From contig NZ_PDJE01000001.1 of the NCBI RefSeq assembly GCF_002563955.1, positions 1,736,001-1,800,000 on the forward strand: 64,000 nucleotides of DNA. The letters run 5' to 3'. Both the position numbers and the translations under genes were made by a program. Shown here one piece after another: positions 2,779 to 64,000 of the stretch; the stretch's first letter is position 1; each line of letters starts with the position of its first letter. This stretch comes from Paramicrobacterium agarici (lineage in GTDB: Bacteria; Actinomycetota; Actinomycetes; Actinomycetales; Microbacteriaceae). The notes under the pieces were generated by a model. The model was not told the origin of the DNA and ran no database searches. It was given only the letters and a program-made list of their open reading frames with translations.

Positions 2779-2818
2779 GTGCCGGTCGGCGGATGCTGGT
2801 GCATCCGCCGACCGGCAC
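2779..2818 (-). terminator. 18-bp hairpin after the ABC ATPase gene
   Basis: Perfect 18-base arms (2779-2796 and 2801-2818) enclose a TGGT loop, 10 bases past the stop of the ABC ATPase gene and upstream of the DUF4032 start. No clear T run follows, so termination efficiency is uncertain. The arms contain the GGATGC/GCATCC core of the window-wide octamer. Confidence 0.65.
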
Positions 2819-2827
2819 ACGAGATCG

Positions 2828-3931
2828 TCAGTCGCTGATGACTGCCTTGTTGCCGAGACGCTCGCCCGACTCCTGGCTGAACACGTGAACGTGGTGAGCG
2901 GTCGGCGCGATGTAGACCTTGTCGCCCGCGTTCGGGTGAATGCGTCCGTCAACGCGCGCGACGATGTCCTGACGCTGACCGTCGACCTCTGCGTGGCCGT
3001 ACAGGTAGCCGTCCGCACCGAGCTCCTCGACGAGGTCGACGTTGATCTCGAGGCCGTCGCCCGGGTTGTTCGACACGACGATGTCCTCGGGGCGAACGCC
3101 GATCGTGACGTCTGCGCTCGTCGCCTCGTTGAGCACCTCGCGCTCGACGGGAACCACGGCGGCACCGAACTGCACGCCGCCATCGACGACGCGGCTCGTG
3201 AGCAGGTTCATCGCGGGTGATCCGATGAAGCCGGCGACGAAGACGTTCGATGGCTTCTCGTAGAGGTCGCGCGGCGTGCCGACCTGCTGCAGCAGACCAT
3301 CCTTCAGCACGGCGATGCGGTCGCCCATGGTGAGTGCCTCGGTCTGGTCGTGCGTGACGTAGACGGTCGTGACGCCGAGGCGGCGCTGAAGCGACGCGAT
3401 CTGGGTGCGCGTCTGAACGCGCAGCTTGGCGTCGAGGTTCGACAGCGGCTCGTCCATGAGGAACACCTGCGGCTGGCGGACGATTGCGCGGCCCATGGCG
3501 ACACGCTGACGCTGACCACCCGAGAGGGCCTTCGGCTTGCGGTTGAGGTAGTCCTCGAGGTCGAGCAGCTTCGCCGCCTCCTGAACGCGCTCGGCGCGCT
3601 CGGCCTTGTTCACGCCGGCGATCTTGAGAGCGAAGCCCATGTTCTCGGCAACGGTCATGTGCGGGTAGAGGGCGTAGTTCTGAAAGACCATCGCGATGTC
3701 GCGATCTTTCGGGGGAATGTCGGTGACGTCACGGTCGCCGATCATGATGCGCCCCTCGTTGACCTCTTCAAGGCCGGCGAGCATGCGCAGCGACGTGGAC
3801 TTACCGCAACCAGACGGTCCGACAAGGACGAGGAACTCCCCATCGGCGATGTCGAGGTCGAGCTGGTCGACTGCGGGGCGGGTACCACCGGGGTAGACAC
3901 GGGTGGCCTTGTCGAAAGTTACCGACGACAT
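2828..3931 (-). CDS. Sugar ABC transporter ATPase, UgpC/MsmX/MsiK type
   Basis: This 367-residue ATPase of the carbohydrate-uptake class 1 family energises sugar permeases at the membrane. It shows Walker A (GPSGCGKST, 38-46), the Q-loop (VFQNYALYP), the ABC signature (LSGGQRQR, 136-143), Walker B (VFLMDEP, 156-162) and a C-terminal TOBE/OB region (IGVRPEDI). The ATG at 3931 is preferred over one six codons upstream because GGAG lies 9 bases before it. No permease or binding-protein genes are adjacent. In Streptomyces the related MsiK is an orphan ATPase shared by several sugar transporters, and the same role is likely here. Confidence 0.92.
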   Translation of the reverse strand: MSSVTFDKATRVYPGGTRPAVDQLDLDIADGEFLVLVGPSGCGKSTSLRMLAGLEEVNEGRIMIGDRDVTDIPPKDRDIAMVFQNYALYPHMTVAENMGFALKIAGVNKAERAERVQEAAKLLDLEDYLNRKPKALSGGQRQRVAMGRAIVRQPQVFLMDEPLSNLDAKLRVQTRTQIASLQRRLGVTTVYVTHDQTEALTMGDRIAVLKDGLLQQVGTPRDLYEKPSNVFVAGFIGSPAMNLLTSRVVDGGVQFGAAVVPVEREVLNEATSADVTIGVRPEDIVVSNNPGDGLEINVDLVEELGADGYLYGHAEVDGQRQDIVARVDGRIHPNAGDKVYIAPTAHHVHVFSQESGERLGNKAVISD

Positions 3932-4192
3932 GTGTTGTTTCTCCTTCACCGGCAGGTACGTGCCGGACGATCCGAGTGACGGAGCAGGGCATTGCAGCCC
4001 CGCAACGCGGCATCGTCACCGCGTTAACACATCAGTATTGCACGAACTGAGATGTGCTCGTGAACGCGAGTCGGCAAACCGGGCGGTTTGGGCTTTTCAC
4101 AGCGCCGAGCACTACCATCGGATGGTATTTGGCGCGGCCACCCGGCAGCAGCATGACCGCGCAGCATCCCGACATTCTTCGAGCGAGGTTCA

Positions 4193-5214: not shown

Positions 5215-5218
5215 AAAT

Positions 5219-5269: not shown

Positions 5270-5656
5270 TCAGCTGCCTGGGGGAGCGGGCCACGTGACG
5301 GGCTCTGCGCCCCATTCCGCGAGGGATTCGGGAGCGGGGAAGCCCAGGTCGTAGTACAGCTGGGGAGCGGAGACATCTCCGAAGTCGTCGAGCTTCGCTC
5401 TGATGCCCGTCGGGCTGACTTCGGCGAGGCGCACGCGGATGCTGTGCCCCGAATCGAGGGTCAGCCGGTAGGGCTCGGCGAGGTATCCGATTCCCCGCTC
5501 ATCAAGCGTCTCTTCCGCCGTGAGCCAGTCGACCGGTTCCGTCACGTGCCGCCCCAGCAGATCGATCGCGATGAAGCCATCGCCGTCGGGCAGCATCCAG
5601 CCCACTCGCTCCCCGTCGGGGCGGCGGTGCTCAACCCAGGCGGAACGGTCAGTCAT
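5270..5656 (-). CDS. Conserved hypothetical protein, third gene of the msrB operon
   Basis: I do not recognise this 128-residue soluble protein. It begins [15 protein letters not shown] and has no signal peptide, membrane segment or metal motif. It reads as a compact beta-rich domain (GWMLPDGDGFIAIDLLGR, then a C-terminal LYYDLGFPAPESL motif). The ATG at 5656 is chosen over one ten codons upstream because GGAG lies just before it. It overlaps the nitroreductase stop by 8 bases, so translational coupling with the upstream redox genes is likely. Confidence 0.7.
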   Translation of the reverse strand: MTDRSAWVEHRRPDGERVGWMLPDGDGFIAIDLLGRHVTEPVDWLTAEETLDERGIGYLAEPYRLTLDSGHSIRVRLAEVSPTGIRAKLDDFGDVSAPQLYYDLGFPAPESLAEWGAEPVTWPAPPGS

Positions 5657-6185
5657 CGACAGTCTCCAGAAATCTTGCCGGGTCAAGAGGGGTGGCGGCG
5701 CGCGTGCCGGCCTCGGGCACGCCGCCGACGTAGAGCCACCCGAGAAGGTATTCGTGGTCGCTCAGCGCGTGCATGCGGTGCACGGGCTCAGAACGCACGA
5801 AGCTGCCCGTTCTCCACATCGAGCCCCAGCCCGAGTCGGCGAGCAGAAGATTCAGCATGTGGGCAACACCGGATGCTGTCGCCTCCTGCTCCCATGCGGG
5901 CACTTTCTTGCTCTCTCGCGGGCTCACGACGATCGCGATGAGCAGCGGCGCGCGCAAGGGCTTCGACGACGACTTGTCGTCGCCCGCAGCATCCGCCAAC
6001 GCCCGCCCGAGGCGCTCGCGCGCTCGTCCGCGCAACTCGATCAGCCGCCACGGCTCAAGCCCGCTGTGATCGGCGACGCGACCCGCGGCAGCCACGAGTC
6101 GCAGCAGCTCGTCATGGCTCGGTGCCTCGTCGGTGACCTTCGACGACGAGCGCCTCGCAGCGACTCGGTCGACGAGGTCTGTCAC
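5649..6185 (-). CDS. Nitroreductase family protein (FMN-dependent)
   Basis: The 178-residue protein matches the nitroreductase fold. The N-terminal R-R-S-S-S-K (11-16) resembles the FMN-phosphate-binding arginine motif, and GWGSMWRTG resembles the glycine-rich FMN loop. These enzymes usually form cytoplasmic dimers that reduce nitro compounds, quinones or flavins with NAD(P)H. Physiological substrate is unknown. The start overlaps the msrB stop in an ATGA arrangement and its end overlaps the next gene by 8 bases. This makes a tight three-gene operon of redox or repair character. Confidence 0.84.
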
Positions 6186-9836: not shown

Positions 9837-11531
9837 TCAGCTCTCGGTCGCTGACGGCGATTCGGAGACGGTTGAGGCGAGGGGAAGCCGAATGCGGAAG
9901 GTCGCGCCACCGCCGGGAGTCTCATTGACGTCGACACTGCCGTTGTGCGCGGCAACGATCGACGACACGATCGCGAGGCCGAGTCCGCTTCCGCCCGTCT
10001 CGCGCGTGCGAGACGAGTCGGCGCGCCAGAATCGCTGGAAGATCTTCTCTCGAATCGGTTCGGGCACACCCTCCCCGTGGTCGATCACGGCGACGGTGGC
10101 CATTCCCGTGAGCGGGTTGGCCGAGACGCCCACTTCGATGGGACTTCCATCGGGAGTGAAGCGCATGGCGTTTCCCATGAGATTGGCGATCACCTGACGA
10201 ATCTTGTTCTCTTCACCCATCACAATGGCCGGAACCGTCGGGATCGACGACGTGATGTGCGTGACCGGCTTCGACGCTTCCTGAGAAGGCGCGGTCTCTG
10301 CTCCCTTGCGCGGACGGCGGCCCCTCAGCCGAGCAAACGTCGCTCCAGCGAGGGCGATCGGTCCCGTGTTGCCTCCCGAGCCGTTCGGGCGGGTCACGGC
10401 ACGGGGTTCGGGCTCGGGCGAGGTGGCCGGCTGCTCGGGAGCGAGCGACGCGCTGTCGGGCGGCGTATCGATGACGAACGATACCGGGCGTCCTGGGTAG
10501 GAGGCGCGGGCATCCATGACAGCATCCTTCGCGAGAGGCGTGAGATCGATGCGTGTCAGTTCGCGCGGTCGTGCCTCGTCGAGGCGCGCGAGTTCGAGAA
10601 GGTCCTGCACCATGCCGCTCATGCGCACGGCTTCCTTCTCGATGCGCTCCATCGCCTGCGCGACGTCCTCGGGCTTCTCGAGAGCGCCCATGCGGTACAG
10701 CTCCGCGTATCCGCGGACCGTGACGAGGGGAGTGCGCAGCTCGTGGCTCGCGTCGCCGACGAAGCGACGCATCTGCTCGATGGTCTGTGCCCGGTCTTTG
10801 AACGCGCGGTCGATGCGGTTGAGCATGGTGTTGAGCGAGCGGTTCAACCGGCCGACTTCGGTGTTGGGCGTCATGTGCGTCAGGCGCTGGCTGAAGTCGC
10901 CGCCCGCGATGTGCGCGGCCGTCGTCTCGGCCTCGCGAAGCGGGTGCAGCGTATTCGTCACCAGCACGCGGGTGATGAGTGCGCCCAGCACGATGACGCC
11001 GAGGCCAAGGCCGAAGAAGATCGTGAGGTAGGTGGCGACGACGCTATCTGGGCCGCGCATCGAGCGTGCGATGAAGACAACGCCGTTCGTCCCGCGATCG
11101 TCCATGGCGTCTGAGACGACGGTGACGGCCTGAAACTCCGAGCCGATGACGTTCGTCACGGCGCGCGGGTACGTCGAGATGGCGTTCGCGACGCTGATGG
11201 TTCCCTCTGCCGGACGCGGGAGCAGCCTGCTCTCCCGGTCATCCCAGTTGTGATCGATGAGGGTGCCGTCGGCATCGTAGAGCGCGATGTAGTACTCGTT
11301 CGTCTCTCGCACGTGCCGCGCTCCTTCGTCATCGACGTCGATATAGCGCGAGATGTCGCCCGTGGCGAAGGCGACGAGCTCAGCCTTCGCCTGTTCGATG
11401 AGCGCCTGCTTCAGAATGATGACCGTGCCGGCACCGGTGACGAGCAAGCCGAACGTCAGCACGATCACCGTGACGCCGGTGATCTTGCTGCGCAGCGTGA
11501 TCGAGTTCCACCAGTCGGCTATGGCCTTCAT
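9837..11531 (-). CDS. Two-component sensor histidine kinase with a linker inserted before the ATPase domain
   Basis: The 564-residue membrane sensor has TM1 (about 17-40), an extracellular region (41-165), TM2 (about 168-192), HAMP (about 192-245) and HisKA with phospho-accepting H263 (DASHELRTPL). The HATPase domain has an N box (QVIANLMGNAMRF, about 446-458), G1 (DHGEGVP) and G2 (GGSGLGLA). Unusually, about 75 Pro/Arg/Ser-rich residues (about 357-432) sit between HisKA and the N box. It follows the response regulator by 9 bases, so the two are co-transcribed. The signal sensed is unknown. Confidence 0.93.
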   Translation of the reverse strand: MKAIADWWNSITLRSKITGVTVIVLTFGLLVTGAGTVIILKQALIEQAKAELVAFATGDISRYIDVDDEGARHVRETNEYYIALYDADGTLIDHNWDDRESRLLPRPAEGTISVANAISTYPRAVTNVIGSEFQAVTVVSDAMDDRGTNGVVFIARSMRGPDSVVATYLTIFFGLGLGVIVLGALITRVLVTNTLHPLREAETTAAHIAGGDFSQRLTHMTPNTEVGRLNRSLNTMLNRIDRAFKDRAQTIEQMRRFVGDASHELRTPLVTVRGYAELYRMGALEKPEDVAQAMERIEKEAVRMSGMVQDLLELARLDEARPRELTRIDLTPLAKDAVMDARASYPGRPVSFVIDTPPDSASLAPEQPATSPEPEPRAVTRPNGSGGNTGPIALAGATFARLRGRRPRKGAETAPSQEASKPVTHITSSIPTVPAIVMGEENKIRQVIANLMGNAMRFTPDGSPIEVGVSANPLTGMATVAVIDHGEGVPEPIREKIFQRFWRADSSRTRETGGSGLGLAIVSSIVAAHNGSVDVNETPGGGATFRIRLPLASTVSESPSATES

Positions 11532-12329: not shown

Positions 12330-13253
12330 ATGACCGAGCCTTCCCGTCACGATCTGCCCGAGCTCCCGACGATCGCGGCGGCGGTGCGTCAGATTGGGGC
12401 GCGGCGCTTCGACTTCTCGCGCGAGGTCGCGGTCATGGCAGTCGTCAATCGCACGCCCGACTCGTTTTACGACCGCGGCCGCACGTTTGCCCTCGACAGC
12501 GCGGTGACCGCCTGCCTCGACGCGGCCTCAAGCGGAGCGGACTGGGTCGACATCGGCGGAGCACCGTTCGCCCCTGGTCCCGAGATCCCGGCAGACGAGG
12601 AGTCCGACCGCGTCGTCCCCGTCGTCGAGGCCGTGCGCGCAGCATCCGACATCGTGATCTCCGTCGATACATTCCGCGCAGACGTCGCTCGTCGCAGCAT
12701 CCTGGCCGGTGCCGACATCATCAACGACACGACGGGCCTCGCCGATCCGGAGCTTGCTCGCGTCGTGGCGGACAGCGACGCGAGCATTGTCATCACGCAC
12801 AGCCTCGCGGCTCCGCGCACCCCGCTGGCATCGCCGACGTATCGCGATGTCTCGATAGAGGTCGCTGAGTTTCTCGAACGCCGCGTTGAGCGCGCGCTCG
12901 GCGCAGGCATTCCCGAGGAGCGCATCATCGTCGATCCGGGCCATGACCTCAACAAGAACACGCTGCACAGTCTCGAGCTCACGCGGAGACTCGGCCCGAT
13001 CGTCGACCTCGGCTACCCGACGCTCGTCGCGGTGTCGAACAAGGACTTCATCGGCGAGAGCCTCGACGCCGATCGGGGAGACCGCGTTGAAGGCTCACTC
13101 GTCGCTGCAGCGTTGTGCATTGCTCAGGGGGCGCGGATCGTGCGCATGCACAATGTGCGAGAGTCTGTCGCTGCCGTGCGCATGGCAGAGGCGATTCTCG
13201 GTATGCGGCAGCCCGCGTACCTCCGGCACAACATGGGAGAGCGCAATGACTGA
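12330..13253 (+). CDS. folP: Dihydropteroate synthase-like protein, FolP2 type
   Basis: The 307-residue protein has the pterin-binding TIM-barrel fold. Motifs are NRTPDSFYDRG near residue 32, DIGGAPFAPGP, SVDTFRADVA, DPGHDLNKNT and SNKDFIGE. NRTPDSFYDRG and SNKDFIGE match the mycobacterial FolP2 paralogue rather than FolP1. FolP2 is reported to lack clear dihydropteroate synthase activity, so the reaction here is uncertain. An ATG at 12312 is an alternative start: at 12330 the GGAG lies very close to the start codon. The end overlaps the RibD_C reductase gene by 8 bases, implying coupled translation. Confidence 0.85.
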   Translation: MTEPSRHDLPELPTIAAAVRQIGARRFDFSREVAVMAVVNRTPDSFYDRGRTFALDSAVTACLDAASSGADWVDIGGAPFAPGPEIPADEESDRVVPVVEAVRAASDIVISVDTFRADVARRSILAGADIINDTTGLADPELARVVADSDASIVITHSLAAPRTPLASPTYRDVSIEVAEFLERRVERALGAGIPEERIIVDPGHDLNKNTLHSLELTRRLGPIVDLGYPTLVAVSNKDFIGESLDADRGDRVEGSLVAAALCIAQGARIVRMHNVRESVAAVRMAEAILGMRQPAYLRHNMGERND

Positions 13254-13986
13254 GATCACGCGGGTATGGCCGCTGCCCGCCGAGTCCACGGCGGATACCG
13301 CGAGAATCGCCGACTGGTATGACGTTGCCGATCGCGGCGAGCCGTGGCTGCGCATGAACTTCGTGTCGAGCGCCGACGGGGGAGTGACCGTCAACGGTCT
13401 CTCGGGAGGCCTCGGAACAGACGCCGATCACGTCGTCTTCGATGCTCTGCGCACGCTCGCAGACGTCGTCATCGTCGGAGCCGGAACCGTGCGCGCCGAG
13501 GGCTACGGCGCCATGAGAGTGGATGCTGTCGAGCAGCGAACGGCGCGGGGAATCGCCCCGCAGCCGGTGTTCGCGATCGTGTCGCGCAGCCTGAGCCTCG
13601 ATCCCGGCGACAGGATCTTCCGTGACGCGCCGGTGCGCCCCATCATCGTCACATGCGAAACGGCAGACGCCGAACGGCGCGAGCGTCTCGAGTCGGTCGC
13701 CGACGTGCTGATCTGCGGCGCAGGGCGCGTGGACGGCATCGCCATGCGTCGCGCACTTGCAGAACGCGGTCTCAACCAGATGCATTGCGAGGGCGGTCCG
13801 ACGCTCTTCGGCGCCCTCGTGCGTGACGACGCCGTCGACGAACTGTGTCTCACGGTGAGCCCGACTCTCGTCGGCGGTGCCGCGGGCCGCATCCTCTCCG
13901 GCGACGATCAGACGCTGCGGTCGCTGTCACTTACGCACATCTGTGAAGATGACGGGACCCTTCTGCTGCGGTACGTGAGAGCGTAG
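13246..13986 (+). CDS. RibD C-terminal/DHFR-like pyrimidine reductase family protein
   Basis: This 246-residue NADPH-dependent reductase fold shows WLRMNFVSSADGGVT, VIVGAGTVRAEGYG and CEGGPTLFGAL, typical of the RibD_C family. It closely resembles the pattern of M. tuberculosis Rv2671, a RibD-like protein reported to have dihydrofolate reductase activity. There is no deaminase domain, so it is not a complete RibD. The start overlaps the FolP2-like gene by 8 bases. A folate or pterin reduction step is therefore a reasonable inference, with riboflavin synthesis as the alternative. Confidence 0.86.
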   Translation: MTEITRVWPLPAESTADTARIADWYDVADRGEPWLRMNFVSSADGGVTVNGLSGGLGTDADHVVFDALRTLADVVIVGAGTVRAEGYGAMRVDAVEQRTARGIAPQPVFAIVSRSLSLDPGDRIFRDAPVRPIIVTCETADAERRERLESVADVLICGAGRVDGIAMRRALAERGLNQMHCEGGPTLFGALVRDDAVDELCLTVSPTLVGGAAGRILSGDDQTLRSLSLTHICEDDGTLLLRYVRA

Positions 13987-22335: not shown

Positions 22336-22412
22336 TCCGACCCCGTCTCCCCGCGGGATGCCGATGTGTCGAATTACCGGGAAGCCGTCACGGCCATTCG
22401 AGAGGAAGCGCT

Positions 22413-24797: not shown

Positions 24798-24967
24798 AGT
24801 GCTCAGTCTGGCAGAACGGACACGGCTGTGACGCGTACGGGGGGCACGCTGGAGCGTCCGTGACGGCATCCCGGCGCCACGATGCACAAAACTGTGCGAA
24901 ACTCGCCGACATTACCGGTTTTTCATGCTCTGGCGCTTAGTGTGGCGGTGTGTGGAGGCGTGACAGA

Positions 24968-35567: not shown

Positions 35568-38090
<2,523 letters not shown>

Positions 38091-47461: not shown

Positions 47462-47507
47462 GAACGGGGTGGATGCTGTTGCACACGCGACAGCATCCAC
47501 CCCGTTC
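47462..47507 (+). terminator. nrdF terminator containing an inverted octamer pair
   Basis: Perfect 18-base arms (GAACGGGGTGGATGCTGT and its complement) enclose a 10-base loop, starting 12 bases past the nrdF stop. Each arm contains one copy of the window-wide GGATGCTG octamer. Confidence 0.88.
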
Positions 47508-48338: not shown

Positions 48339-49172
48339 ATGACATCGGCCCTTGTGACGCCCCGGCAGCTTCGAGGGATGCTGGAGGGCTCGTCGACTGT
48401 GCGGCTTCTCGACGTGCGCTGGAGGCTCGACAGCCCGCATGGCAGGGCGGAGTATGAGCGCGAGCATCTTCCCGGCGCCGTCTACGTGGACCTCGACACC
48501 GATCTCGCTGCTCTGGGGAAACCGGCGACCGAGGGGCGCCACCCGCTTCCGGACATCGCTGCGCTGCAGGAGACCGCACGAAGGCTGGGAATCTGCTACG
48601 GCGATACGGTGATCGCGTACGACGCGTGGAACAACATGGGCGCGGCACGCGCGTGGTGGCTGCTCGGCTGGGCAGGAATCCGCGACGTGCGCGTCGTGAA
48701 CGGCGGCATCGCCGCGTGGCAGGCTGCGGGTCTGCCGGTCGAGAGTGGAGACGTGGTGCCCGCGCGCGGCGACGTTGACCTGATGCCCGGGAGTCGGCCG
48801 ACGCTCACGATGGATGAGGCGGCTGCGCTCGCCGACGACGGAGTGCTCACCGACTCGCGTGCCGAGGAGCGCTTCCGCGGGGAAACGGAGCCGTTGGACC
48901 CTCGCGCCGGACACATTCCCGGGGCAGCCAATGTTCCTGCGGCGTCGTACCTGCGCGACGGCATCTTCGCAGACGCAGATGAGCTGGCGCACGTGTTTCG
49001 CGAGATCGGAGTCGAACCGGGAGTCGAGGTCGGCACCTATTGTGGCTCAGGAGTTACGGCGGCCCATACCGCTCTCGCGCTGCACGAGATCGGAGTGACA
49101 GCCTCCCTCTTTCCCGGATCGTGGAGCCAATGGTCGAACCACAGTGATCGCCCTGTCGCGACGGGACGGTGA
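48339..49172 (+). CDS. Rhodanese-type sulfurtransferase
   Basis: The 277-residue protein has two rhodanese domains: an inactive N-terminal one (1-130) and a catalytic one with C235 in TYCGSGVTA. A CGSGVT loop is characteristic of 3-mercaptopyruvate sulfurtransferases; thiosulfate activity cannot be excluded. It transfers sulfane sulfur to thiol acceptors. GGAGG lies 5 bases before the ATG. Confidence 0.92.
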   Translation: MTSALVTPRQLRGMLEGSSTVRLLDVRWRLDSPHGRAEYEREHLPGAVYVDLDTDLAALGKPATEGRHPLPDIAALQETARRLGICYGDTVIAYDAWNNMGAARAWWLLGWAGIRDVRVVNGGIAAWQAAGLPVESGDVVPARGDVDLMPGSRPTLTMDEAAALADDGVLTDSRAEERFRGETEPLDPRAGHIPGAANVPAASYLRDGIFADADELAHVFREIGVEPGVEVGTYCGSGVTAAHTALALHEIGVTASLFPGSWSQWSNHSDRPVATGR

Positions 49173-49947: not shown

Positions 49948-53784
<3,837 letters not shown>

Positions 53785-53879: not shown

Positions 53880-54842
53880 ATGGCCTGGCTGGTCACCGGA
53901 GGCGCCGGGTACATCGGCGCGCACGTCGTTCGGGCGTTCCGCGCCGAGGGCATCGACGTGGTCGTGCTCGACAATCTCTCCAGCGGCCATGCTGACTTCG
54001 TTCCCGACTCGGTGCCGTTCGTGCGCGGCTCAATCCTCGACAGAGAGATGCTCGAGCGAACGCTCCGCGAGCACAACGTCACGGGTGTTGTTCACGTCGC
54101 CGGGTTCAAGTACGCCGGCGTTTCTGTTCAGAAGCCGCTGCACACGTACGAGCAGAACGTCACGGGCACCGCCATCCTTCTCGAGGCGATGCAGAGCACG
54201 GGAGTCGACAAGATCGTGTTCTCCTCGAGCGCCGCCGTCTACGGCACGCCTGACGTGGATCTCGTTACCGAGGACACTCCGAAAGCTCCCGAGTCGCCCT
54301 ACGGCGAGTCCAAGCTCATTGGCGAATGGATGCTGCGGGACCAGGAAATCGCGATGGGGCTCGCCCACACGTCGCTGCGTTACTTCAATGTCGTCGGCTC
54401 GGGCTACTCCGACGTGTACGACACGAGCCCGCACAACCTGTTTCCCCTCGTCTTCGACGCGCTGCTCGGGGGCCAGACGCCGCGCATCAACGGCGATGAC
54501 TACCCGACCCCGGACGGAACCTGCGTGCGCGACTACATTCACGTCGCCGATCTCGCCGCCTCGCATGTTTCGGCGGCGAAGAGTCTGGATGCTGGTCAGG
54601 TGCTTGAGCCTGTCTACAACCTGGGGTCAGGCGACGGCGTCTCTGTCGGGCAGATCATGGCGACCGTCGCCGAGGTGACCGGAATCGACTTCACGCCGGA
54701 GATCGCGCCTCGCCGCGCCGGCGACCCCGCGCGAATCGTGTCGACGGGGGAGAGCGCGGCCCGTGATCTCGACTGGGTGATGCGCCACAGCCTCGCCGAC
54801 ATGGTCTCGAGCGCGTGGAGCGCACGTCGCTCAGCACAATGA
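53880..54842 (+). CDS. galE: UDP-glucose 4-epimerase
   Basis: The 320-residue short-chain dehydrogenase-fold enzyme interconverts UDP-glucose and UDP-galactose. It shows the NAD-binding GGAGYIG (7-13) and the catalytic SSS (116-118) plus Y141-x3-K145 (SPYGESK). GGAGG lies 5 bases before the ATG. With galU and manB in this window it links to envelope sugar supply. Confidence 0.94.
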   Translation: MAWLVTGGAGYIGAHVVRAFRAEGIDVVVLDNLSSGHADFVPDSVPFVRGSILDREMLERTLREHNVTGVVHVAGFKYAGVSVQKPLHTYEQNVTGTAILLEAMQSTGVDKIVFSSSAAVYGTPDVDLVTEDTPKAPESPYGESKLIGEWMLRDQEIAMGLAHTSLRYFNVVGSGYSDVYDTSPHNLFPLVFDALLGGQTPRINGDDYPTPDGTCVRDYIHVADLAASHVSAAKSLDAGQVLEPVYNLGSGDGVSVGQIMATVAEVTGIDFTPEIAPRRAGDPARIVSTGESAARDLDWVMRHSLADMVSSAWSARRSAQ

Positions 54843-55423: not shown

Positions 55424-58402
55424 ATGGAAACACGAGTCACCGCACTCGTCGTCGCCCACCGCGACGTCGAGCACCTGCGCCGCACGCTCGACGCGCTCGA
55501 CAGTCAGACCCGTCGTGCCGATGCGGTGGTCGCCATCGCGTTCGACGCGTCTGACGAGGTACGGCGGCTACTTGAGGAGCGACCGATCGATCGTCTTCTC
55601 ACATCGAAGGAGCAGCTGACCTTCGGTCGCGCGCTCGCCGAGGGAGAACGCACGCTTGAGGATCCCCGGGGAGACGATGACTTCCTGTGGCTGCTCGCAC
55701 AAGACAACGCTCCACTCCCGCACGCGCTCGAACAGCTGCTCGCGCGCTTCGAGACAGCGCCCTCGGCAGCGGTTGCCGGGCCGAAGCTCGTGGATTGGAA
55801 TGACGCCTCCCGGCTCAGGGGCATCGGTGAAACGATGACGACCCGCGGCAAGACCGTGACCTACGTCGACGATCAGCTCGACCAAGGGCAATACGACACC
55901 ATGAGCGATGTGCTCGCTGTCGCGTCTCCCGGCATGCTCGTGCGGCACACCGTGTGGCGCGAGGTCGACGGCTTCGACCCGGCACTCGGTCCGATTGACG
56001 ATGGTCTCGATTTCTGCGTCCGCGCTCGGCTCACGGGGCGACGCGTCGTTCTGGCGCCTCGAGCCGTCGTCGCGGTCTCGGGAGATGGCATCGCCGGTGC
56101 GCCACGCTCTCGCCGATGGAGCGTCAAACAGAGGCGCGCTCGCCTCTCCCGTACGGCAGAACTTCATCGGCGGCTCGTCTACGCCCCTCGCGTCTCGCTG
56201 TTCTGGCATTGGGTTCTTCTCATCCCTCTTGCCGTTGCGCGCTCGATCGCGCTGCTCATCCGCAAGCAGCCGGAACTCATCGCAGCGGAATTTCGAGCGG
56301 CGGCGTGGGTAGTGTTCGGCGGCACCCACGTGGCGGCGGCCCGCAAACGACTCGCCGCAGCTAAAACGGTCGGCTGGTCGACACTCAACGATCTCAAGAT
56401 GTCAAGCCGCGAAGTCGCCCGCCGCAAGCGCCTGGAACGTGAAGACGGCGTGCCTCTCGGGGCCGTCGAGCGGAGTGACCTGCGCTTCTTCACGGGCGGT
56501 GGCGGATGGATCGTGCTCGCGTCACTCGTCACGGGAGCGATCTTGTTCATTCGCTTCGTTCCCGCGACGACGCTTGCCGGAGGGGCGCTCCTTCCGCTCA
56601 GCGGCGACGTCTGGAGCCTCTGGCAGAACGTCGGCTACGGCTGGCGCAGCGTCGGCGACGGCTTTGTCGGAGCGGCAGATCCATTCGCTGTCGTTCTGGC
56701 TCTTCTGGGCACCCTCACGTTCTGGCAGCCGTCGTATTCGCTCGTCCTGCTCTGGATTCTCGCGCTTCCTCTTGCAACGCTCACGGGCTGGTTCGCCATG
56801 ACGCGGCTCACGGAGCGCAGCGGCTACCGCAACCTGGGCGCCATCGCCTGGACGCTCGCGCCGACCTTCCTGATCGCCCTGGCCGAGGGACGTCCGGCCG
56901 CCGTCATCGCGCACATTCTGCTGCCTGTGCTCTTCTCGGCGGGAGTCGTCGCCGCGCGCTCGTGGGGCGCTGCCGCTGCAGCATCCCTTCTGCTCGCTCT
57001 TGTCTCGGCGTGCGCGCCGTCGCTGATTCCCGCTCTGCTTGTGCTGTGGCTCGTTGTCGTCGTTCTTGCGCGTGCCCGTTTCGGGCGCGTACTCTTCGTT
57101 CCAGTCCCGCTCATCGCCCTCTTCGGGCCTCTCGTGTGGCAGCAAGGGGTTGAATCCGGGCGGTGGATCGCGCTCCTTGCCGATCCGGGCAAGCCGATCA
57201 TCTCACCAGACGTGTCTGTCGTCGACCTGCTTCTCGGCATTCCGCAGACAGGTCTCGCCGGGTGGCGGGATGCCGCAGCAGAACTGGGCGTGAATGCGAT
57301 GGCCGTAAGCATCGCCGTTCCCGTGCTCGTGGGAATCGTCGCTCTGGTCGGGCTGAGCGGCCTGTTCCTGCCCGGTGCACTGCGGGGCCTCGCCCTCTGG
57401 TGCATCGCGGCGCTCGGTTTCGTCACGGCCGTCGTGGCCTCACACGTCGCCGTGACGTTCGTCGGCGCGCAGACCACGAGCATCTGGCCTGGGCCGGCAC
57501 TGAGCCTGTTGTGGCTCGGCATGACGGGAGCTGCGGTTTCTGCATGCGACAGTCTGCGTGTTCACGGTCGGCTTCCGGCGATCGTCGCGGGAGTGGCCGT
57601 CGCAACGGTTGCCGTACCCGCGCTCATCATGGTTCCGCTGGGAGACGGCTCCGTGTCGTCGAGCGATGGACGCACCCTGCCCGCCTATGTCACAGCGGCT
57701 GCCGACGACGATCCGGGACTCGGCACCCTTCGCATCACTCCCGAATCAGACGGGGCGATCGTCGCGACGGTGATTCGGGGCGAGGGCGAGTTTCTCGACA
57801 GGCAATCGACACTCGTGAACACAGGCTCGCTCGCCGCTGACGCGAACGGCGACCTGGCCGTGCTCACGGGCAACATCGTCTCGGTGAGCGGACATGCATT
57901 CACACCCGATCTGCAGAAGCAGGGGATCGAATTCGTGCTGCTCGCACCGGCGCCCGACGCGACGAGCGAGGAACAGCTCGCCGTCGCGTCGCGTGCAGAA
58001 ACTGCTCTTGACGCGAACGCCGAGCTGGAGAACGTTGGCGTGACAGACGTCGGAACCCTTTGGCGCACGACGGAGGAGGTTGACGGACGCGAGCCAGGTG
58101 CTGTGCGCTCAGTCGGAACGGCTCTCTCGCTTGCCGCACTCATCGCCGTGACGCTTATCGCGCTGCTCATTGCGATTCCGACGAGCAGCTCGAGAGAGGC
58201 GGCCCGTATGAGCCCGCGCACGGTCGGCCGACGGGACCCGAACGAGGGAATGGTCGTGCGCGAGGTACCGGATGATCAGGCGCTGCTCGCCGATCCGGAT
58301 GCCGAAGCAGAACCGGAGTGGGCGGACGTCGTGTCGCTGCCCGGTGCCGCGCCAGCGCCCGAAGGCGCCACATCAGAGAAGGAGAGCGACGATCATGCGT
58401 AA
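55424..58402 (+). CDS. Large family-2 glycosyltransferase with multi-pass membrane domain
   Basis: The 992-residue protein has an N-terminal GT-A glycosyltransferase domain (about 1-230, starting VTALVVAHRDVEHLRRTLDA, with LWLLAQDNAP and GPIDDGLDFCVRAR). A polytopic membrane region (about 245-745, roughly a dozen helices) and an extracellular part (about 745-900) follow, then a last helix (about 900-925) and a cytoplasmic tail. This layout suits an envelope polymer glycosyltransferase using sugar nucleotides or lipid-linked sugars. Donor and product are unknown. It overlaps the DUF5719 gene by 8 bases. Confidence 0.85.
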   Translation: METRVTALVVAHRDVEHLRRTLDALDSQTRRADAVVAIAFDASDEVRRLLEERPIDRLLTSKEQLTFGRALAEGERTLEDPRGDDDFLWLLAQDNAPLPHALEQLLARFETAPSAAVAGPKLVDWNDASRLRGIGETMTTRGKTVTYVDDQLDQGQYDTMSDVLAVASPGMLVRHTVWREVDGFDPALGPIDDGLDFCVRARLTGRRVVLAPRAVVAVSGDGIAGAPRSRRWSVKQRRARLSRTAELHRRLVYAPRVSLFWHWVLLIPLAVARSIALLIRKQPELIAAEFRAAAWVVFGGTHVAAARKRLAAAKTVGWSTLNDLKMSSREVARRKRLEREDGVPLGAVERSDLRFFTGGGGWIVLASLVTGAILFIRFVPATTLAGGALLPLSGDVWSLWQNVGYGWRSVGDGFVGAADPFAVVLALLGTLTFWQPSYSLVLLWILALPLATLTGWFAMTRLTERSGYRNLGAIAWTLAPTFLIALAEGRPAAVIAHILLPVLFSAGVVAARSWGAAAAASLLLALVSACAPSLIPALLVLWLVVVVLARARFGRVLFVPVPLIALFGPLVWQQGVESGRWIALLADPGKPIISPDVSVVDLLLGIPQTGLAGWRDAAAELGVNAMAVSIAVPVLVGIVALVGLSGLFLPGALRGLALWCIAALGFVTAVVASHVAVTFVGAQTTSIWPGPALSLLWLGMTGAAVSACDSLRVHGRLPAIVAGVAVATVAVPALIMVPLGDGSVSSSDGRTLPAYVTAAADDDPGLGTLRITPESDGAIVATVIRGEGEFLDRQSTLVNTGSLAADANGDLAVLTGNIVSVSGHAFTPDLQKQGIEFVLLAPAPDATSEEQLAVASRAETALDANAELENVGVTDVGTLWRTTEEVDGREPGAVRSVGTALSLAALIAVTLIALLIAIPTSSSREAARMSPRTVGRRDPNEGMVVREVPDDQALLADPDAEAEPEWADVVSLPGAAPAPEGATSEKESDDHA

Positions 58403-59777
58403 GCACCTGCGATTCAGCATGCGCATGGGCGCGGGAGCGGTGACGGTGCTCGCACTCGCTGTCATTGCCGCGGCCGCGCTGATCGTCGACGTTCCGACGT
58501 ACCGGGCCGACGCGACTCCAGTCACGGTGACGCCCGAAGCCGCTGATCAGGTGCGCGTGTGCCCGGGGAGCCTGCTCGAGGTCGGACAGGAGGCGAGCGC
58601 GGCGACCGCACTCACGCGCTTGGGCGATCCGTCGCGCGCGGCCTCGGCATCGGGAGACACCGGCATCGACGCGTCCACGATCGCCGCGCCCGGCGTCAGT
58701 GGTGACGCTCCAGGACCTGCGACTCTCACGCTCCCGGCATCCGGCGACGCGGGAACCATGGGGGCAAGCCAGTCGCAGTCTGTCGGCACAGAGACGATCG
58801 CGGGCTTCGCCGCGGCCGAGTGCCAGGAGACACGCTCCGACATGTGGTTCGTCGCCGGGTCGACCGATGTCGGGCGCACGAGCCTCGTCATGCTCAACAA
58901 CCCCACGGGAGTCGACGCGATGGTCGATATCGCGGTCGTCGGAGAGAACGGGGCGATCGACAGCCCCAACGGAATCGGCATTCTCGTCGAAGCAGGCTCG
59001 CAAAAAGTTGTTCCTCTGGCCGGGATTGCGCCGAACACCGTGACTCCCGTCGTGCACGTGACGAGCACGGGAACCGATATTCAGGCGTGGGTTCAGCATT
59101 CGTCGATCCGCGGTCTCATTCCCGCTGGTGTCGAGATGGCCGGGCACGGAACCGACCCGTCCGAGTCGACGACGATTCCCGGCGTGCAAATCTACGCGGA
59201 ACAGCCGACGATCGATACGCAGGAGTACGACGATCGGCGGCCGTCGCTTCGCATCTATGCGCCGAGTGGAGCTCCCGCGCATGTCTCGGCTACGGTGACT
59301 GACGAAGCGGGCGCCGAAGTCTCGACGTTCGCTGTCGATGTCGCCGCGGACACCGTGGGAGAGTATCCGCTCACCGACCTCAAGCCGGGGCGCTACAGCA
59401 TCCAGATCGACGCCACAGAACCCGTCGTCGCAGGCGCGCGCACAAGCGTCGCCGACGACAAGAGCGGTGATTTCGCCTGGTTCGCATCGGCTCCGCCACT
59501 CGAATCGCCATTTGTCGTCGACGCCGCACCTGGTCCAGGACGGAGCCTCGTTCTGCACAACGCAAGCGCGACCGAGACCACCGCAGACATCGGGTCAGAG
59601 TCCGTGACGATCGCGGCCGGGGCCACCTACACGCACGCGCTGGACGGGCCGGTCGTCGTGACGCCGGAGTCGCCGCTCTCGGCGGCCGTGACCTACGCAG
59701 GCGGAGACTCCGTGTCGTCGTTCACGATCACCGCGCCGAAGCCGGCATCGGAACCCGTCGACGTCTATGTGCGATGA
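58395..59777 (+). CDS. DUF5719 exported protein
   Basis: The 460-residue protein has one N-terminal membrane helix (about 14-33, GAVTVLALAVIAAAALIVDV) and a large extracellular, beta-rich region of repeated adhesin-like motifs (WFVAGSTDVGRTSLVMLNNP; later FAWFASAPP). It matches the actinobacterial DUF5719 family, typically encoded right after a giant GT2, as here. Coupled translation suggests it works with the glycosyltransferase. Molecular role is unknown. Confidence 0.85.
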   Translation: MRKHLRFSMRMGAGAVTVLALAVIAAAALIVDVPTYRADATPVTVTPEAADQVRVCPGSLLEVGQEASAATALTRLGDPSRAASASGDTGIDASTIAAPGVSGDAPGPATLTLPASGDAGTMGASQSQSVGTETIAGFAAAECQETRSDMWFVAGSTDVGRTSLVMLNNPTGVDAMVDIAVVGENGAIDSPNGIGILVEAGSQKVVPLAGIAPNTVTPVVHVTSTGTDIQAWVQHSSIRGLIPAGVEMAGHGTDPSESTTIPGVQIYAEQPTIDTQEYDDRRPSLRIYAPSGAPAHVSATVTDEAGAEVSTFAVDVAADTVGEYPLTDLKPGRYSIQIDATEPVVAGARTSVADDKSGDFAWFASAPPLESPFVVDAAPGPGRSLVLHNASATETTADIGSESVTIAAGATYTHALDGPVVVTPESPLSAAVTYAGGDSVSSFTITAPKPASEPVDVYVR

Positions 59778-60515: not shown

Positions 60516-61951
60516 TGGGCGCGAAGCAGGTTCGGTCGGCGGCTGAGAGGCTGACGGCCGCCGTCAAGACGTACGACGTGCGCGGGCTCGTCGACGTCGA
60601 TCTGACCGACGAGATCATCGAGGCCGTCGGTGCCGCGTTCGTGGATGAAATCGACGCGGAAGGCACCGAGGTCGTCGTCGGACACGACATGCGGGACTCC
60701 TCGCCGCGCTTCGCCGCCGCGTTCAGTGCGGGCGTGCGCGCACGCGGCGGCAATGTCGTCGCGATCGGGCTCTGCTCCACAGACGAGAGCTATTTCGCGT
60801 CGGGGTCGATGGATGCCGCGGCGGCAATGTTCACGGCCAGCCACAACCCCTCGGTGTACAACGGCATCAAGCTGTCGCGTCCGGGCGCGCAGTCCCTGTC
60901 GATGGACACGGGCCTCGGAGCAATCAGGGACCGCGCTATCCGCTATCTCGAATCCGGGATCCCCACGGTGGACGCACCGGGCACCGAACGCTCCGCTGAC
61001 GTGCTCTCTGACTATGCGCGAGCCCTGCGTGCCGTCGTTCCCCTCGAGCAGATCCGACCGCTGCGCATCGTCGTCGATGCCGGCAACGGAATGGGCGGTA
61101 TGACGGTCCCCGCAGTCCTGGGCGAAGCAGCGGGTCTCGCGGCGCTTCCCGTGGAGATCATTCCCCTCTACTTCGAACTCGACGGCACGTTCCCGAACCA
61201 CGAGGCGAACCCGCTCGACCCGGCGAACCTCACAGACCTCACTCGCGCCGTCATGGAGCACGGTGCCGACGCCGGTCTCGCCTTCGACGGCGACGCCGAT
61301 CGCTGCTTCGTCGTTGACGAGAACGGCGACGCCGTGAGCCCCTCTGCGGTCACGGCGATCGTCGCCGTGCGCGAGATCGCCCGTGAGCGCGAGAGCGATC
61401 CGGCCGCGAGGCCGCTCGTGCTGCACAACCTGATCACGTCGCGCTTCGTTCCCGAGATCATCGAAAGCCGCGGTGCCGAGCCCGTGCGCACGCGAGTCGG
61501 TCACTCGCTCATCAAGGCGCAGATGCGCGATACCGGAGCAATCTTCGGTGGCGAGCACTCTGCGCACTACTACTTCCGCGATTTCTGGGGAGCCGACAAC
61601 GGCATGCTCGCCGCGATGCACGTGCTCGCCGAGCTTGGGTCGCAGCCCTTGCCGCTGTCAGAATTCTCCGCCGAGTTCAGCCCCTACCGGCAGTCGGGCG
61701 AGATCAATTCGACGGTCGACGACGTCCCGCTGGCGTATGCGCGCATCGTCGAGGCGTTCCAGGGGCGGGCGCAGTTTGACGAGATGGACGGCCTCACAGC
61801 AACGGGAATCACGCCGGAGGGCGAGCCGTTCTGGTGGTTCAATGTTCGCCCGTCGAACACCGAGCCGCTACTGCGCTTGAACGTCGAGGGCGAGGATGCT
61901 GCGACGATGGAGGCTGTGCGCGACGAGGTGCTGTCGCTCATTCGCGCCTGA
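60515..61951 (+). CDS. manB: Phosphomannomutase/phosphoglucomutase
   Basis: The 478-residue alpha-D-phosphohexomutase interconverts mannose-6- and mannose-1-phosphate. The phosphoserine S109 lies in FTASHNP, the Mg loop DGDADR is at 258-263, the substrate loop GGEHSAHYYF and the phosphate loop RPSNTEPLLR follow. GTG start is supported by GGAGG 4 bases upstream. Product feeds GDP-mannose and envelope glycans. Confidence 0.94.
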   Translation: MGAKQVRSAAERLTAAVKTYDVRGLVDVDLTDEIIEAVGAAFVDEIDAEGTEVVVGHDMRDSSPRFAAAFSAGVRARGGNVVAIGLCSTDESYFASGSMDAAAAMFTASHNPSVYNGIKLSRPGAQSLSMDTGLGAIRDRAIRYLESGIPTVDAPGTERSADVLSDYARALRAVVPLEQIRPLRIVVDAGNGMGGMTVPAVLGEAAGLAALPVEIIPLYFELDGTFPNHEANPLDPANLTDLTRAVMEHGADAGLAFDGDADRCFVVDENGDAVSPSAVTAIVAVREIARERESDPAARPLVLHNLITSRFVPEIIESRGAEPVRTRVGHSLIKAQMRDTGAIFGGEHSAHYYFRDFWGADNGMLAAMHVLAELGSQPLPLSEFSAEFSPYRQSGEINSTVDDVPLAYARIVEAFQGRAQFDEMDGLTATGITPEGEPFWWFNVRPSNTEPLLRLNVEGEDAATMEAVRDEVLSLIRA

Positions 61952-61972
61952 GCCGCGTGGAACAATGGTCGT

Positions 61973-63445
61973 ATGACCAGTTCTGCGCCCTTCGACTACC
62001 AGATCGCCGACCTCTCTCTCGCTGAAGCGGGGCGCCACCAGCTTCGCCTTGCCGAGAACGAGATGCCCGGCCTGATGGCCCTGCGCGACGAATACGGTGC
62101 GTCGCAGCCGCTCGCCGGCGCGCGCATTGCCGGTTCTCTGCACATGACGGTGCAGACGGCCGTGCTCATCGAGACCCTCGTGGCGCTCGGCGCCCAGGTG
62201 CGCTGGGCGAGCTGCAACATCTATTCGACGCAGAACGAGGCGGCTGCGGCCGTTGTCGTTGGACCCGAGGGAACGATCGATGCGCCCGCGGGTGTTCCCG
62301 TGTTCGCGTGGAAGGGCGAGACCCTCGCCGAGTATTGGGCGTGCACCGATCGCATCTTCGATTGGAGCAGCGAATCAGAAGCCGCGGGGGAGAGCTGGAT
62401 CGGCCCGAACCTGATTCTCGACGATGGCGGCGACGCCACGCTGCTCGTGCACAAGGGCCGAGAGTTCGAGGCTGCTGGGGACGTTCCCGAGGCGACGGAT
62501 GCTGACAGTGAAGAGTTCAGCGTTGTTCTCGACGTGCTGCGTCGCTCCCTTGCAGCATCCCCTGACCGCTGGACCCGCATCGCCGGCGAGCTCGAGGGCG
62601 TCACCGAAGAGACGACAACGGGCGTGCATCGCCTGTACGAACTCGCGCGTTCGGGTGAGCTGCTCTTTCCGGCGATCAACGTCAACGACTCGGTGACGAA
62701 ATCCAAGTTCGACAACCGCTACGGCATTCGCCATTCGCTTCCCGACGGGCTCAACCGGGCAACCGACGTTCTCATCGGAGGCAAGGTCGCCTTCGTCGTC
62801 GGCTATGGCGACGTGGGAAAGGGTGCGGCCGAGGCGCTGCGGGGTCAGGGCGCTCGCGTGATCGTGTCAGAGGTGGACCCCATCTGCGCCTTGCAGGCGG
62901 CGATGGACGGTTTTCAGGTCGCGACGCTCGAGTCCGTCGCCGACCAGGTCGACATCGTCATCACGTGCACGGGAAACCGCGCTGTCGTTCGTCCCGAGCA
63001 CATGCTCGCCATGAAGCACCTGGCGATCGTTGCGAACGTGGGGCACTTCGATAATGAGATCGACATGGCGGGCCTCGCCGCGATCGATGGCGTTGTGAAG
63101 CTCGAGATCAAACCACAGGTTCACGAATGGCGCCTGCCGACGGGTCGCTCGATCCTGGTGCTCAGCGAGGGACGTCTCATGAACCTCGGCAACGCGACGG
63201 GGCACCCGTCGTTCGTGATGAGCAATTCCTTTGCCAACCAAGTGCTCGCGCAGATCGAGCTGCACGAGCGTGGCGATCGGTATTCGACGGACGTTCACGT
63301 TCTTCCGAAGCGCCTCGACGAGAAGGTGGCACGGCTGCACCTCGACGCGCTCGGTGTTGAGCTCACCTCGCTGTCGCCGGAGCAAGCGGCGTACATCGGC
63401 GTTCCTGTCGAGGGGCCGTACAAGCTCGAGCACTACCGGTATTGA
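61973..63445 (+). CDS. ahcY: Adenosylhomocysteinase
   Basis: The 490-residue NAD-dependent enzyme hydrolyses S-adenosylhomocysteine to homocysteine and adenosine, restoring methylation capacity. It has the Rossmann motif [10 protein letters not shown] (about 275-284), the substrate segment [18 protein letters not shown] and the C-terminal YKLEHYRY that reaches the neighbouring subunit. It is complete and 21 bases downstream of manB, probably co-transcribed. The RDD gene converges on it. Confidence 0.95.
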
Positions 63446-63461
63446 GCGATCGCGCCCGAGA

Positions 63462-64000
63462 TCACCGCGCAGGAGACGGATGCTGCGGGACGCGCGCCGG
63501 AAACGAATGCGGATTGTCGTGCAACAGCGGCTGCAGGCGCTGCAGCCGCTCGCGCTCGAGCATGAGAGCGCGGTAGCTGCGCTCGCGACGCAGAGCGGCG
63601 ACGGCGTAGAGGAACGACAGCGGATCGGTCTGGGGCAGCGGAGCGACGTGCGCTGACGCCTCGTTCGCGAGATCGTGTGCCAGCCGCGCGCGAGAGTGCG
63701 GGGTCATGCGTGCGGCCTGGGAGAGAAACTGCGCGATGCGCCGTGCGAGCCGGTCGGGAAGACGTGCGACATCGGCGACCTGGGCCCACGCGGTCAGGTG
63801 CTGCGGAACGGGGTACACGGCCGGGCTGATGCGCGGGACGCGCTCGTGCTGTGAGTAGGTTCCTGCGAGCATGTCGCCGATGCGCTTGGAGCGGGCGCCG
63901 AGAAGTCCGACGAGGGCCGCGCCGCCTCCGAGCGTCATATAGATCTCGAAGAAGCCGACGAGGGCGCGGATGAAGGCGTGCCTGAAGCCGATTGCGCCGC
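63462..64000 (-). CDS. RDD-family membrane protein, C-terminal part (5' end outside window)
   Basis: The window cuts the gene; the visible 179 codons begin inside the frame with AIGFRHAFIRALVGFFEI and include the third RDD helix and the conserved GGGAALVGLLGARSKRIGDMLAGTY. The long C-terminal part (AWAQVADVARLPDRLARRIAQF) is cytoplasmic. RDD proteins are small multipass membrane proteins of uncertain transport role. It is convergent with ahcY, with 16 bases between stops. Confidence 0.85.
   Translation of the reverse strand, partial: GAIGFRHAFIRALVGFFEIYMTLGGGAALVGLLGARSKRIGDMLAGTYSQHERVPRISPAVYPVPQHLTAWAQVADVARLPDRLARRIAQFLSQAARMTPHSRARLAHDLANEASAHVAPLPQTDPLSFLYAVAALRRERSYRALMLERERLQRLQPLLHDNPHSFPARVPQHPSPAR

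Follow-up and report, generated by a model that had tools for sequence, protein, structure and literature searches.

The repeated octamer in the window

The stretch of DNA analysed here, referred to as the window, is a 64-kb segment (positions 1736001-1800000) of the genome of Paramicrobacterium agarici (G000; one contig, NZ_PDJE01000001.1, 3,233,920 bp), a member of the family Microbacteriaceae, and its genes include groEL (7756-9378), nrdE (44336-46435) and nrdF (46470-47450). Scattered through the window are copies of the octamer GGATGCTG (the T form) and of its variant GGATGCCG (the C form), which are written together as GGATGCYG. A preliminary description, made from the sequence alone, had counted at least 39 copies of GGATGCTG and likened them to DNA uptake sequences. 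The count obtained here is 44, with 21 copies on the plus and 23 on the minus strand, and the first copy (at 1654) precedes the range covered by that description. The positions of both forms are given below.

1654..1661, minus strand, GGATGCTG
2791..2798, plus strand, GGATGCTG
4162..4169, minus strand, GGATGCTG
5437..5444, plus strand, GGATGCTG
5591..5598, minus strand, GGATGCTG
5871..5878, plus strand, GGATGCTG
5987..5994, minus strand, GGATGCTG
10520..10527, minus strand, GGATGCTG
12640..12647, minus strand, GGATGCTG
12695..12702, minus strand, GGATGCTG
13521..13528, plus strand, GGATGCTG
15692..15699, plus strand, GGATGCTG
17331..17338, minus strand, GGATGCTG
18370..18377, plus strand, GGATGCTG
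23415..23422, plus strand, GGATGCTG
23882..23889, minus strand, GGATGCTG
25687..25694, plus strand, GGATGCTG
27454..27461, minus strand, GGATGCTG
31441..31448, minus strand, GGATGCTG
31940..31947, plus strand, GGATGCTG
32543..32550, plus strand, GGATGCTG
34835..34842, plus strand, GGATGCTG
34851..34858, minus strand, GGATGCTG
36650..36657, plus strand, GGATGCTG
36953..36960, plus strand, GGATGCTG
40116..40123, minus strand, GGATGCTG
41312..41319, minus strand, GGATGCTG
42742..42749, plus strand, GGATGCTG
43174..43181, minus strand, GGATGCTG
47471..47478, plus strand, GGATGCTG
47491..47498, minus strand, GGATGCTG
48025..48032, minus strand, GGATGCTG
48376..48383, plus strand, GGATGCTG
51051..51058, minus strand, GGATGCTG
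52011..52018, minus strand, GGATGCTG
53428..53435, minus strand, GGATGCTG
54328..54335, plus strand, GGATGCTG
54587..54594, plus strand, GGATGCTG
56979..56986, minus strand, GGATGCTG
59396..59403, minus strand, GGATGCTG
61894..61901, plus strand, GGATGCTG
62497..62504, plus strand, GGATGCTG
62553..62560, minus strand, GGATGCTG
63478..63485, plus strand, GGATGCTG
22356..22363, plus strand, second dialect GGATGCCG
24114..24121, plus strand, second dialect GGATGCCG
24356..24363, plus strand, second dialect GGATGCCG
27484..27491, plus strand, second dialect GGATGCCG
27601..27608, plus strand, second dialect GGATGCCG
30037..30044, plus strand, second dialect GGATGCCG
36557..36564, plus strand, second dialect GGATGCCG
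50637..50644, plus strand, second dialect GGATGCCG
50902..50909, plus strand, second dialect GGATGCCG
52062..52069, plus strand, second dialect GGATGCCG
57268..57275, plus strand, second dialect GGATGCCG
58297..58304, plus strand, second dialect GGATGCCG
60811..60818, plus strand, second dialect GGATGCCG
1428..1435, minus strand, second dialect GGATGCCG
23367..23374, minus strand, second dialect GGATGCCG
24864..24871, minus strand, second dialect GGATGCCG
26002..26009, minus strand, second dialect GGATGCCG
33385..33392, minus strand, second dialect GGATGCCG
39820..39827, minus strand, second dialect GGATGCCG
58735..58742, minus strand, second dialect GGATGCCG

Abundance, spacing and orientation

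In dinucleotide-preserving shuffles of the window (n=100) GGATGCTG occurred 2.8 times on average and at most eight times, and no other 8-mer of the window is as strongly over-represented under an order-2 model (3.1 copies expected). It also ranks first in a 464-kb sample of G000 composed of 20 spaced 20-kb pieces and the window (400 copies versus 31.4 under an order-3 model), where its density, 862 per Mb, equals that of the whole genome. The latter carries 2,789 copies (1,416 forward, 1,373 reverse), 28 times the 99 copies of the reversed word that served as control (46 forward, 53 reverse), and the genome-wide count called for in the preliminary description is therefore not near expectation.

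The gaps between copies in the sample are near random and Poisson-like (coefficient of variation 1.06), no regular spacing being seen. Such Poisson-like scatter across the genome, in genes as well as between them, would suit the binding site of a chromosome protein (a nucleoid organiser or a protein of repair or segregation) or a signal of the HIP1 kind, spread by selection for a chromosome function. However, the cyanobacterial HIP1 repeat is palindromic whereas GGATGCYG is not, and the copies in the sample show no polarity. Taken together with the distribution among relatives described below, these points make a chromosomal function of this sort unlikely.

The two strands are balanced in the sample (203 versus 197 copies), and no replication-strand bias is seen there either, with 183 copies on the leading and 192 on the lagging strand (p 0.68); the leading strand was set by the sign of the GC skew in 19 of the 21 sampled pieces, the skew being weak and the assignment rough. 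The length, abundance and G-rich make-up of the word resemble those of Chi, and signals of the Chi type are over-represented in genomes, so that a recombination signal stopping a RecBCD or AdnAB-type nuclease has to be considered. Chi, however, acts in one orientation and is biased towards the leading strand, while the strand check proposed earlier gave equal use of both strands in the sample and in the genome totals (1,416 and 1,373). This lack of polarity weakens the Chi-like alternative, which appears very improbable.

Codon usage and definition of the word

The genes of the sample were delineated by a simple codon-usage caller (453 genes, 89% coding, starts approximate). As had been pointed out before, the word often falls in frame as GAT GCT (Asp-Ala): the register G-GAT-GCT-G is the commonest, accounting for 153 of the 356 coding copies in the sample and 16 of the 44 copies in the window, which is what a codon-pair or dinucleotide bias might produce. 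Nevertheless, 60 within-gene shuffles of synonymous codons yielded only 43.6 (sd 5.1) coding copies instead of 356, and the excess extends to all six strand/phase registers (ratios 2.9 to 93) and to intergenic DNA, where 42 copies in 51 kb of the sample stand against 2.16 expected, a 19-fold excess. The reversed words, meanwhile, occur at expectation under the same shuffles (16 versus 13.9 and 12 versus 14.1). Moreover, within the Asp-Ala register the T form was found 153 times (8.8 expected) and the C form 40 times (21.9 expected), that is, the favoured codon loses to the motif. Codon bias is thus refuted by the shuffles and by the six-register and intergenic excess, and is hardly credible as an explanation of the word. 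The observation that groEL, nrdE and nrdF are devoid of GGATGCTG holds, and they lack GGATGCCG as well.

The word is sharply defined. Of the 24 octamers that differ from it by one base, GGATGCCG alone shows a clear excess in coding DNA (138 versus about 63.5), the next-best ratios being those of GGATGCTT (19 versus 10.9) and GAATGCTG (19 versus 12.0). Each of the eight positions counts, the only clear tolerance being for Y at position 7, and the flanks are nearly free: C precedes the word (-1) in 54% of cases (null 38%), and C or T follows it (+8) in 78% (null 62%). The word includes GGATG and GCATC, the recognition sites of the known type IIS enzymes FokI and SfaNI, and it might be a motif for methylation or restriction that the host maintains at high frequency. 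Restriction sites, however, are usually avoided rather than enriched, and the requirement for all eight bases also speaks against this possibility, of which we think little.

The copies are unevenly distributed with respect to gene composition. The lowest-GC eighth of the sampled genes contains 0.21 copies per kb and the highest-GC eighth 1.86; the number of copies climbs steeply from 9 to 81 per eighth, where codon shuffles predict 2.4 to 6.3.

Inverted pairs and hairpins

In the sample, all 11 pairs of copies whose starts lie <28 bp apart are convergent, three of them being intergenic and eight lying in coding DNA as called, and 10 of the 13 convergent pairs closer than 60 bp fall within coding regions as called. 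Close convergent pairs are also above chance in the congener G003 (4), in G066 (5) and in Microbacterium (5). The three hairpins reported previously in the window are present, and each folds better than all of its 200 shuffled versions; two are full head-to-head pairs, and the third combines one full copy with a partner shortened to GGATGC. The paired features are the following.

2779..2818, no strand assigned, intergenic hairpin in which a full copy (2791-2798) faces a truncated one; folding energy of 2776-2822 -43.1 kcal/mol, z -8.9
34835..34858, no strand assigned, two intergenic copies facing head to head, GGATGCTG...CAGCATCC; folding energy of 34825-34868 -25.9 kcal/mol, z -3.9
47471..47498, no strand assigned, intergenic head-to-head pair forming a terminator-like hairpin 20 bp past the nrdF stop; 47462-47512 folds at -44.0 kcal/mol, z -11.4
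62497..62560, no strand assigned, convergent pair within a coding region, starts 56 bp apart

The window also encodes (24968-28732) a protein of 1254 aa that matches the anti-phage proteins ProA and Hhe and, weakly, an MTES_1575-type nuclease end, all below the curated cut-offs.

Conservation of sites among congeners

The window was aligned with the same region of four congeners (G001-G004, which together with G000 represent five species of the genus), random 8-mers or comparable words serving as null. In G003, 24 of 38 window T sites are identical (19% for random 8-mers; p 4e-9) and 27 of 38 carry either T or C. G004 has 13 T and 10 C at 37 sites, G002 has 10 T and 6 C at 37, and G001 has 4 T and 4 C at 28 (either form, p 0.06). 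The two forms are exchanged in place, T-to-C swaps exceeding the null in G004 (27% versus 1.4%), G002 (16% versus 1.7%), G001 (14% versus 0.9%) and G003 (8% versus 1.5%). An unrooted tree based on 40,946 shared columns pairs G002 with G004, both of which are genomes of balanced dialect.

Dialects and their spread among relatives

Both forms were counted in 119 genomes, G000 included. The whole-genome T/C counts within the genus are 2789/1105 in G000, 3355/1502 in G003, 1835/1862 in G002, 1680/2153 in G004 and 575/2906 in G001; the share of T thus ranges from 17% to 72%, while the total remains steady at 1,024 to 1,313 per Mb. The T form reaches at least 460 per Mb only in four of these five species, and outside those four, G001 included, it does not exceed about 170 per Mb. 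The C form, in turn, is strongly enriched in many genera of Microbacteriaceae (3,828 copies in G066, 3,399 in G063, 3,363 in G060, 3,277 in G028 and 3,214 in G032; controls 142 to 273) and near background in other genomes of the family, e.g. G054 (84, control 118). Across the family the density of T plus C varies from 49 to 1,313 per Mb and is at least 450 per Mb in 27 of 72 genomes (genome sizes rounded). In samples of G001, G066 and G012 the top 8-mer is GGATGCCG, which is also among the top four in G028 and G009; samples of G054 and G017 contain no comparable over-represented word. GGATGCTG is therefore one dialect of a family-wide signal, and many relatives use GGATGCCG.

Among the 119 genomes, no comparable excess was found in those of the other families of the order, the highest ratio read being that of G107 (C 311 versus 67, T 156 versus 35). 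In a class-wide set of 148 genomes GGATGCYG is high in four of five family members (word/control: G000 3,894/175, G220 5,157/311, G231 4,357/549, G208 1,770/363 and G252 608/298), and outside the family no genome of that set exceeds 3.9 times the control, as read from the table by eye rather than computed.

For named genera, 80 loci of up to 24 kb around a HrpA-like helicase gene were used. The densities of GGATGCCG per Mb are 1,338 for the four loci of Microbacterium (128 copies versus 21.9 expected), 967 for the single locus of Marisediminicola, 805 for Cryobacterium and 673 for Salinibacterium. Five further genera, namely Curtobacterium, Frigoribacterium, Labedella, Leucobacter and Actinomadura, have it at 1.3 to 2.6 times the order-3 expectation, and the first four of these at 1.0 to 1.3 times the codon-shuffle expectation. 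According to codon shuffles, Cryobacterium prefers ACGGATGC (72 versus 5.2) and CGGATGCC (106 versus 17.5), and Herbiconiux also has GGATGCGC (39 versus 12.6), while GGAGGCGC is abundant in the Frigoribacterium loci L114, L122, L151, L171 and L173 (101 versus 23.6 in coding DNA, plus 21 intergenic copies). GGAGGCGC of Frigoribacterium and GGATGCGC of Herbiconiux may be further dialects, an idea to be taken as a lead only, since GGAGGCGC looks like a ribosome-binding site and the loci examined are orthologues of one another. Curtobacterium has GGAGGCGC at high frequency in intergenic DNA only (20 copies in 22 kb, as opposed to 29 versus 38.5 expected in coding DNA).

These distributions also bear on the binding site of a chromosome protein, which would likewise be expected to give conserved sites and to be scarce in recent arrivals. 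A dialect change within one genus at steady total density is, however, difficult to reconcile with it, as is a density that varies from 49 to 1,313 per Mb within a single family and goes, with exceptions, with the presence of a pilus locus.

Mobile elements, phages and atypical genes

The word is scarce, relative to genome density, in two mobile elements, in atypical genes and in phages. In the sample of G000 the most codon-atypical eighth of genes contains 0.42 copies per kb, the six middle bins of typicality contain 0.87-1.09, and the most codon-biased eighth contains 0.54. Parts of seven Microbacterium phages carry GGATGCCG at 201 per Mb (36 versus 17.6 expected), in contrast to the 1,338 per Mb of the four Microbacterium chromosome loci. 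Phage Efeko (L180, first 9 kb) differs from the other six, having eight copies of GGATGCCG versus 1.2 expected. An insert in the pilus gene tadA of G002 contains nine T or C copies instead of the 42.2 expected at genome density (P 7e-10), and a similarly placed insert in G000 contains five instead of 14.5 (P 0.004).

Uptake machinery and the Tad locus

The search for competence genes suggested in the preliminary description was positive: G000 carries ComEC, an adjoining ComEA (SLBB and helix-hairpin-helix domains) and Tad/Flp genes, though its core tadA is split. ComEC and ComEA were found in 57 of 59 and 113 of 119 genomes searched, respectively; being near-universal, they do not explain the distribution of the motif and were rejected as discriminating genes. 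The classical type IV pilus (PilC-type T2SSF, E < about 1e-25) is present in G001 and many relatives and is not needed either. The best T2SSF matches of the signal-bearing G000, G002, G003 and G004 range from 9.6e-23 to 5e-17, so that none of these four genus members has a match of PilC strength; as the signal occurs in species whose best T2SSF match falls outside the PilC type, we propose a Tad/Flp pilus in its place. In G001 a classical type IV pilus operon was recognised by eye (PilB, PilT, PilC, pilins and PilM/N/O-like proteins; L091, G001:C1:470001-490000).

G000 has a tad/flp cluster at about C1:451-459 kb (L090 3183-10637, G000:C1:448001-468000), the TadE of which scores much higher than the core TadE of the congeners. 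Separate from it is a core Tad locus comprising tadA, tadB, tadC, flp, tadE and genes for a second TadE-like and a TadG-like protein, which lies beside prfB, ftsE, ftsX and smpB (recognised by eye) in G000, G001, G002 and G003, with a similar order in G066. Pfam backs the TadA, TadE and TadG-like protein of G003. The minor pilins (TadE, the second TadE-like protein and the TadG-like protein) are candidate receptors.

Presence of this locus is associated with the word. With a TadE match at E <1e-7, 25 of 47 family genomes reach at least 450 per Mb, compared with 2 of 25 that have no such match (Fisher 1.2e-4), and the link persists with one genome per genus (Mann-Whitney 3e-4). Likewise, at least 600 per Mb is reached by 14 of 29 genomes with core tadA (cut-off E <1e-95, by reading) and by none of 15 without it (Fisher 0.0013; 44 of the 72 family genomes searched). 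The locus is, nonetheless, not sufficient for the word.

In G000 the core tadA is broken into two parts, covering residues 3-156 and 152-410, by an element of about 12 kb (G000:C1:2605184-2617241; region 12401-16753 of L181, which is G000:C1:2592001-2612000), and next to one part is a gene for a tyrosine integrase. The two parts in G002 (3-166 and 146-410) are separated by 41 kb, one of them adjoining a serine recombinase gene, and those in G040 (5-155 and 153-406) by 57 kb; G012 and G028 have partial tadA matches only. In all three split genes the break is at about codons 146-166. Mobile elements are known to insert into competence genes, and the occurrence of two types of recombinase at about the same codons suggests that the core Tad locus matters to DNA uptake.

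Interpretation

We propose that Microbacteriaceae use GGATGCYG as a DNA uptake sequence and that a Flp/Tad competence pilus recognises it, and would give this reading a probability of about 0.72. The uptake interpretation offered in the preliminary description is supported by computed properties of the word, namely its abundance, lack of strand polarity, sharp eight-base definition, dialects with in-place T/C exchange, conservation at orthologous sites, close convergent pairs and scarcity in two mobile elements and in atypical genes, as well as by the tie to one Tad locus and the presence of ComEA and ComEC. That this locus builds a competence pilus, that the word is bound and favours uptake, and which protein would read it are inferences.

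Natural transformation would proceed through a Flp/Tad pilus of the kind used by Micrococcus luteus, a member of the same order as Microbacteriaceae. A receptor on a minor pilin or another surface protein would prefer DNA containing GGATGCCG, the dialect used most in the family, or GGATGCTG, which currently prevails in P. agarici, and imported kin DNA would recombine into the chromosome, so that word-bearing alleles are copied more often than word-less ones. Copies would then accumulate by molecular drive at any position where the sequence allows them, on either strand and in genic as well as intergenic DNA, and a change in receptor preference may have shifted the seventh base between C and T within the genus.

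Several observations weigh against this proposal. The exact T form is not kept beyond chance in G001 (4 of 28 sites) and not clearly in G002 (10 of 37, p 0.09); samples of G002, G001, G028, G012 and Cryobacterium, each with a chance expectation below one, contain no close convergent pairs; and the motif is much denser in high-GC genes. The tadA inserts are not below the expectation from composition (nine versus 5.4 in G002, five versus 2.0 in G000), and that of G000 is low in T only (1 versus 10.4), C being at genome density (4 versus 4.1). As to the pilus, the cut-offs of the association were chosen after seeing the data and kinship was handled in a single test, in which each genus was represented by one genome. 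Two genomes, G046 (747 per Mb) and G006 (573), carry the signal without a good TadE match, and G046, with weak TadE and T2SSF matches, lies outside the 44 genomes searched for tadA and looks like an exception. Many genomes, including those of other families of the order, have a Tad locus without the signal, and the association with T2SSF is weak (24 of 56 versus 3 of 16; Fisher p 0.14, rank test p 0.04). Since its core tadA is split, the G000 strain may not be competent now, and its copies may record past transformation.

A Hi-C study, as far as its available parts go, describes the transformation of sludge Microbacterium with a synthetic plasmid supplied from outside (PMC10257627), which indicates that DNA uptake occurs in Microbacteriaceae; in the same parts no tag is mentioned as needed for the uptake of that plasmid, another point against the proposal.

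The accessible part of a 2025 paper names Neisseriaceae and Pasteurellaceae as the only families known to use such motifs (PMC12616744). Among the matches listed from the open-licence literature, preprints not included, there is no report of an actinobacterial uptake sequence, and one uptake paper among them contains GGATGCCG by accident of a primer. We are inclined to regard GGATGCYG as a third independent origin of self-specific DNA uptake and the first in Gram-positives, with the word tagging DNA across much of the family, a Flp/Tad reader, a C/T dialect shift in progress in one genus and mobile elements countering the system by insertion into tadA. If borne out by uptake experiments, it would be the first tag for self DNA known from Gram-positive bacteria. 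A case among them that relies on different machinery would demonstrate the repeated evolution of self-specific uptake, Flp/Tad pili would gain a sequence-reading role, and a genus with a dialect change under way would be at hand.

Comparison with known systems

Like GGATGCTG, Chi of E. coli is an over-represented octamer, but Chi is polar and GGATGCTG is not. The T-rich extended flank of the uptake signal sequence (USS) of Pasteurellaceae has no counterpart here, where only C at -1 and Y at +8 are preferred. According to excerpts of the sources, USS has a 9-base core that is not palindromic, numbers about 1,300 copies in H. influenzae, with paired copies acting as terminators (PMC5217627), and comes in two dialects (PMC12616744); these features are matched here by a non-palindromic core, many copies, paired copies and two dialects, whereas sequence, phylum and machinery differ.

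The DNA uptake sequence (DUS) of Neisseriaceae, according to the part of the source at hand, is present in 2,245 to 5,918 copies per genome, in genes and between them, forms terminator-like inverted pairs and has eight dialects, two of which may share one genome (PMC3630211). GGATGCYG resembles it in its thousands of genic and intergenic copies, its inverted pairs and its dialects, including two in one genome. Unlike DUS, it is unrelated in sequence (GCCGTCTGAA-type DUS, PMC6370729), belongs to hosts of another phylum with one membrane, is proposed to be read by a Tad/Flp pilus, and has 10 of 13 convergent pairs <60 bp in coding DNA, as called.

As for the machinery, the transformation of Micrococcus luteus runs, in the portion of the paper available, through Flp/Tad pili, ComEA and ComEC (PMC4322843). 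The main text of that paper does not contain the term "uptake sequence", while ComEA, ComEC and Tad/Flp genes of the same kinds are those found in P. agarici.

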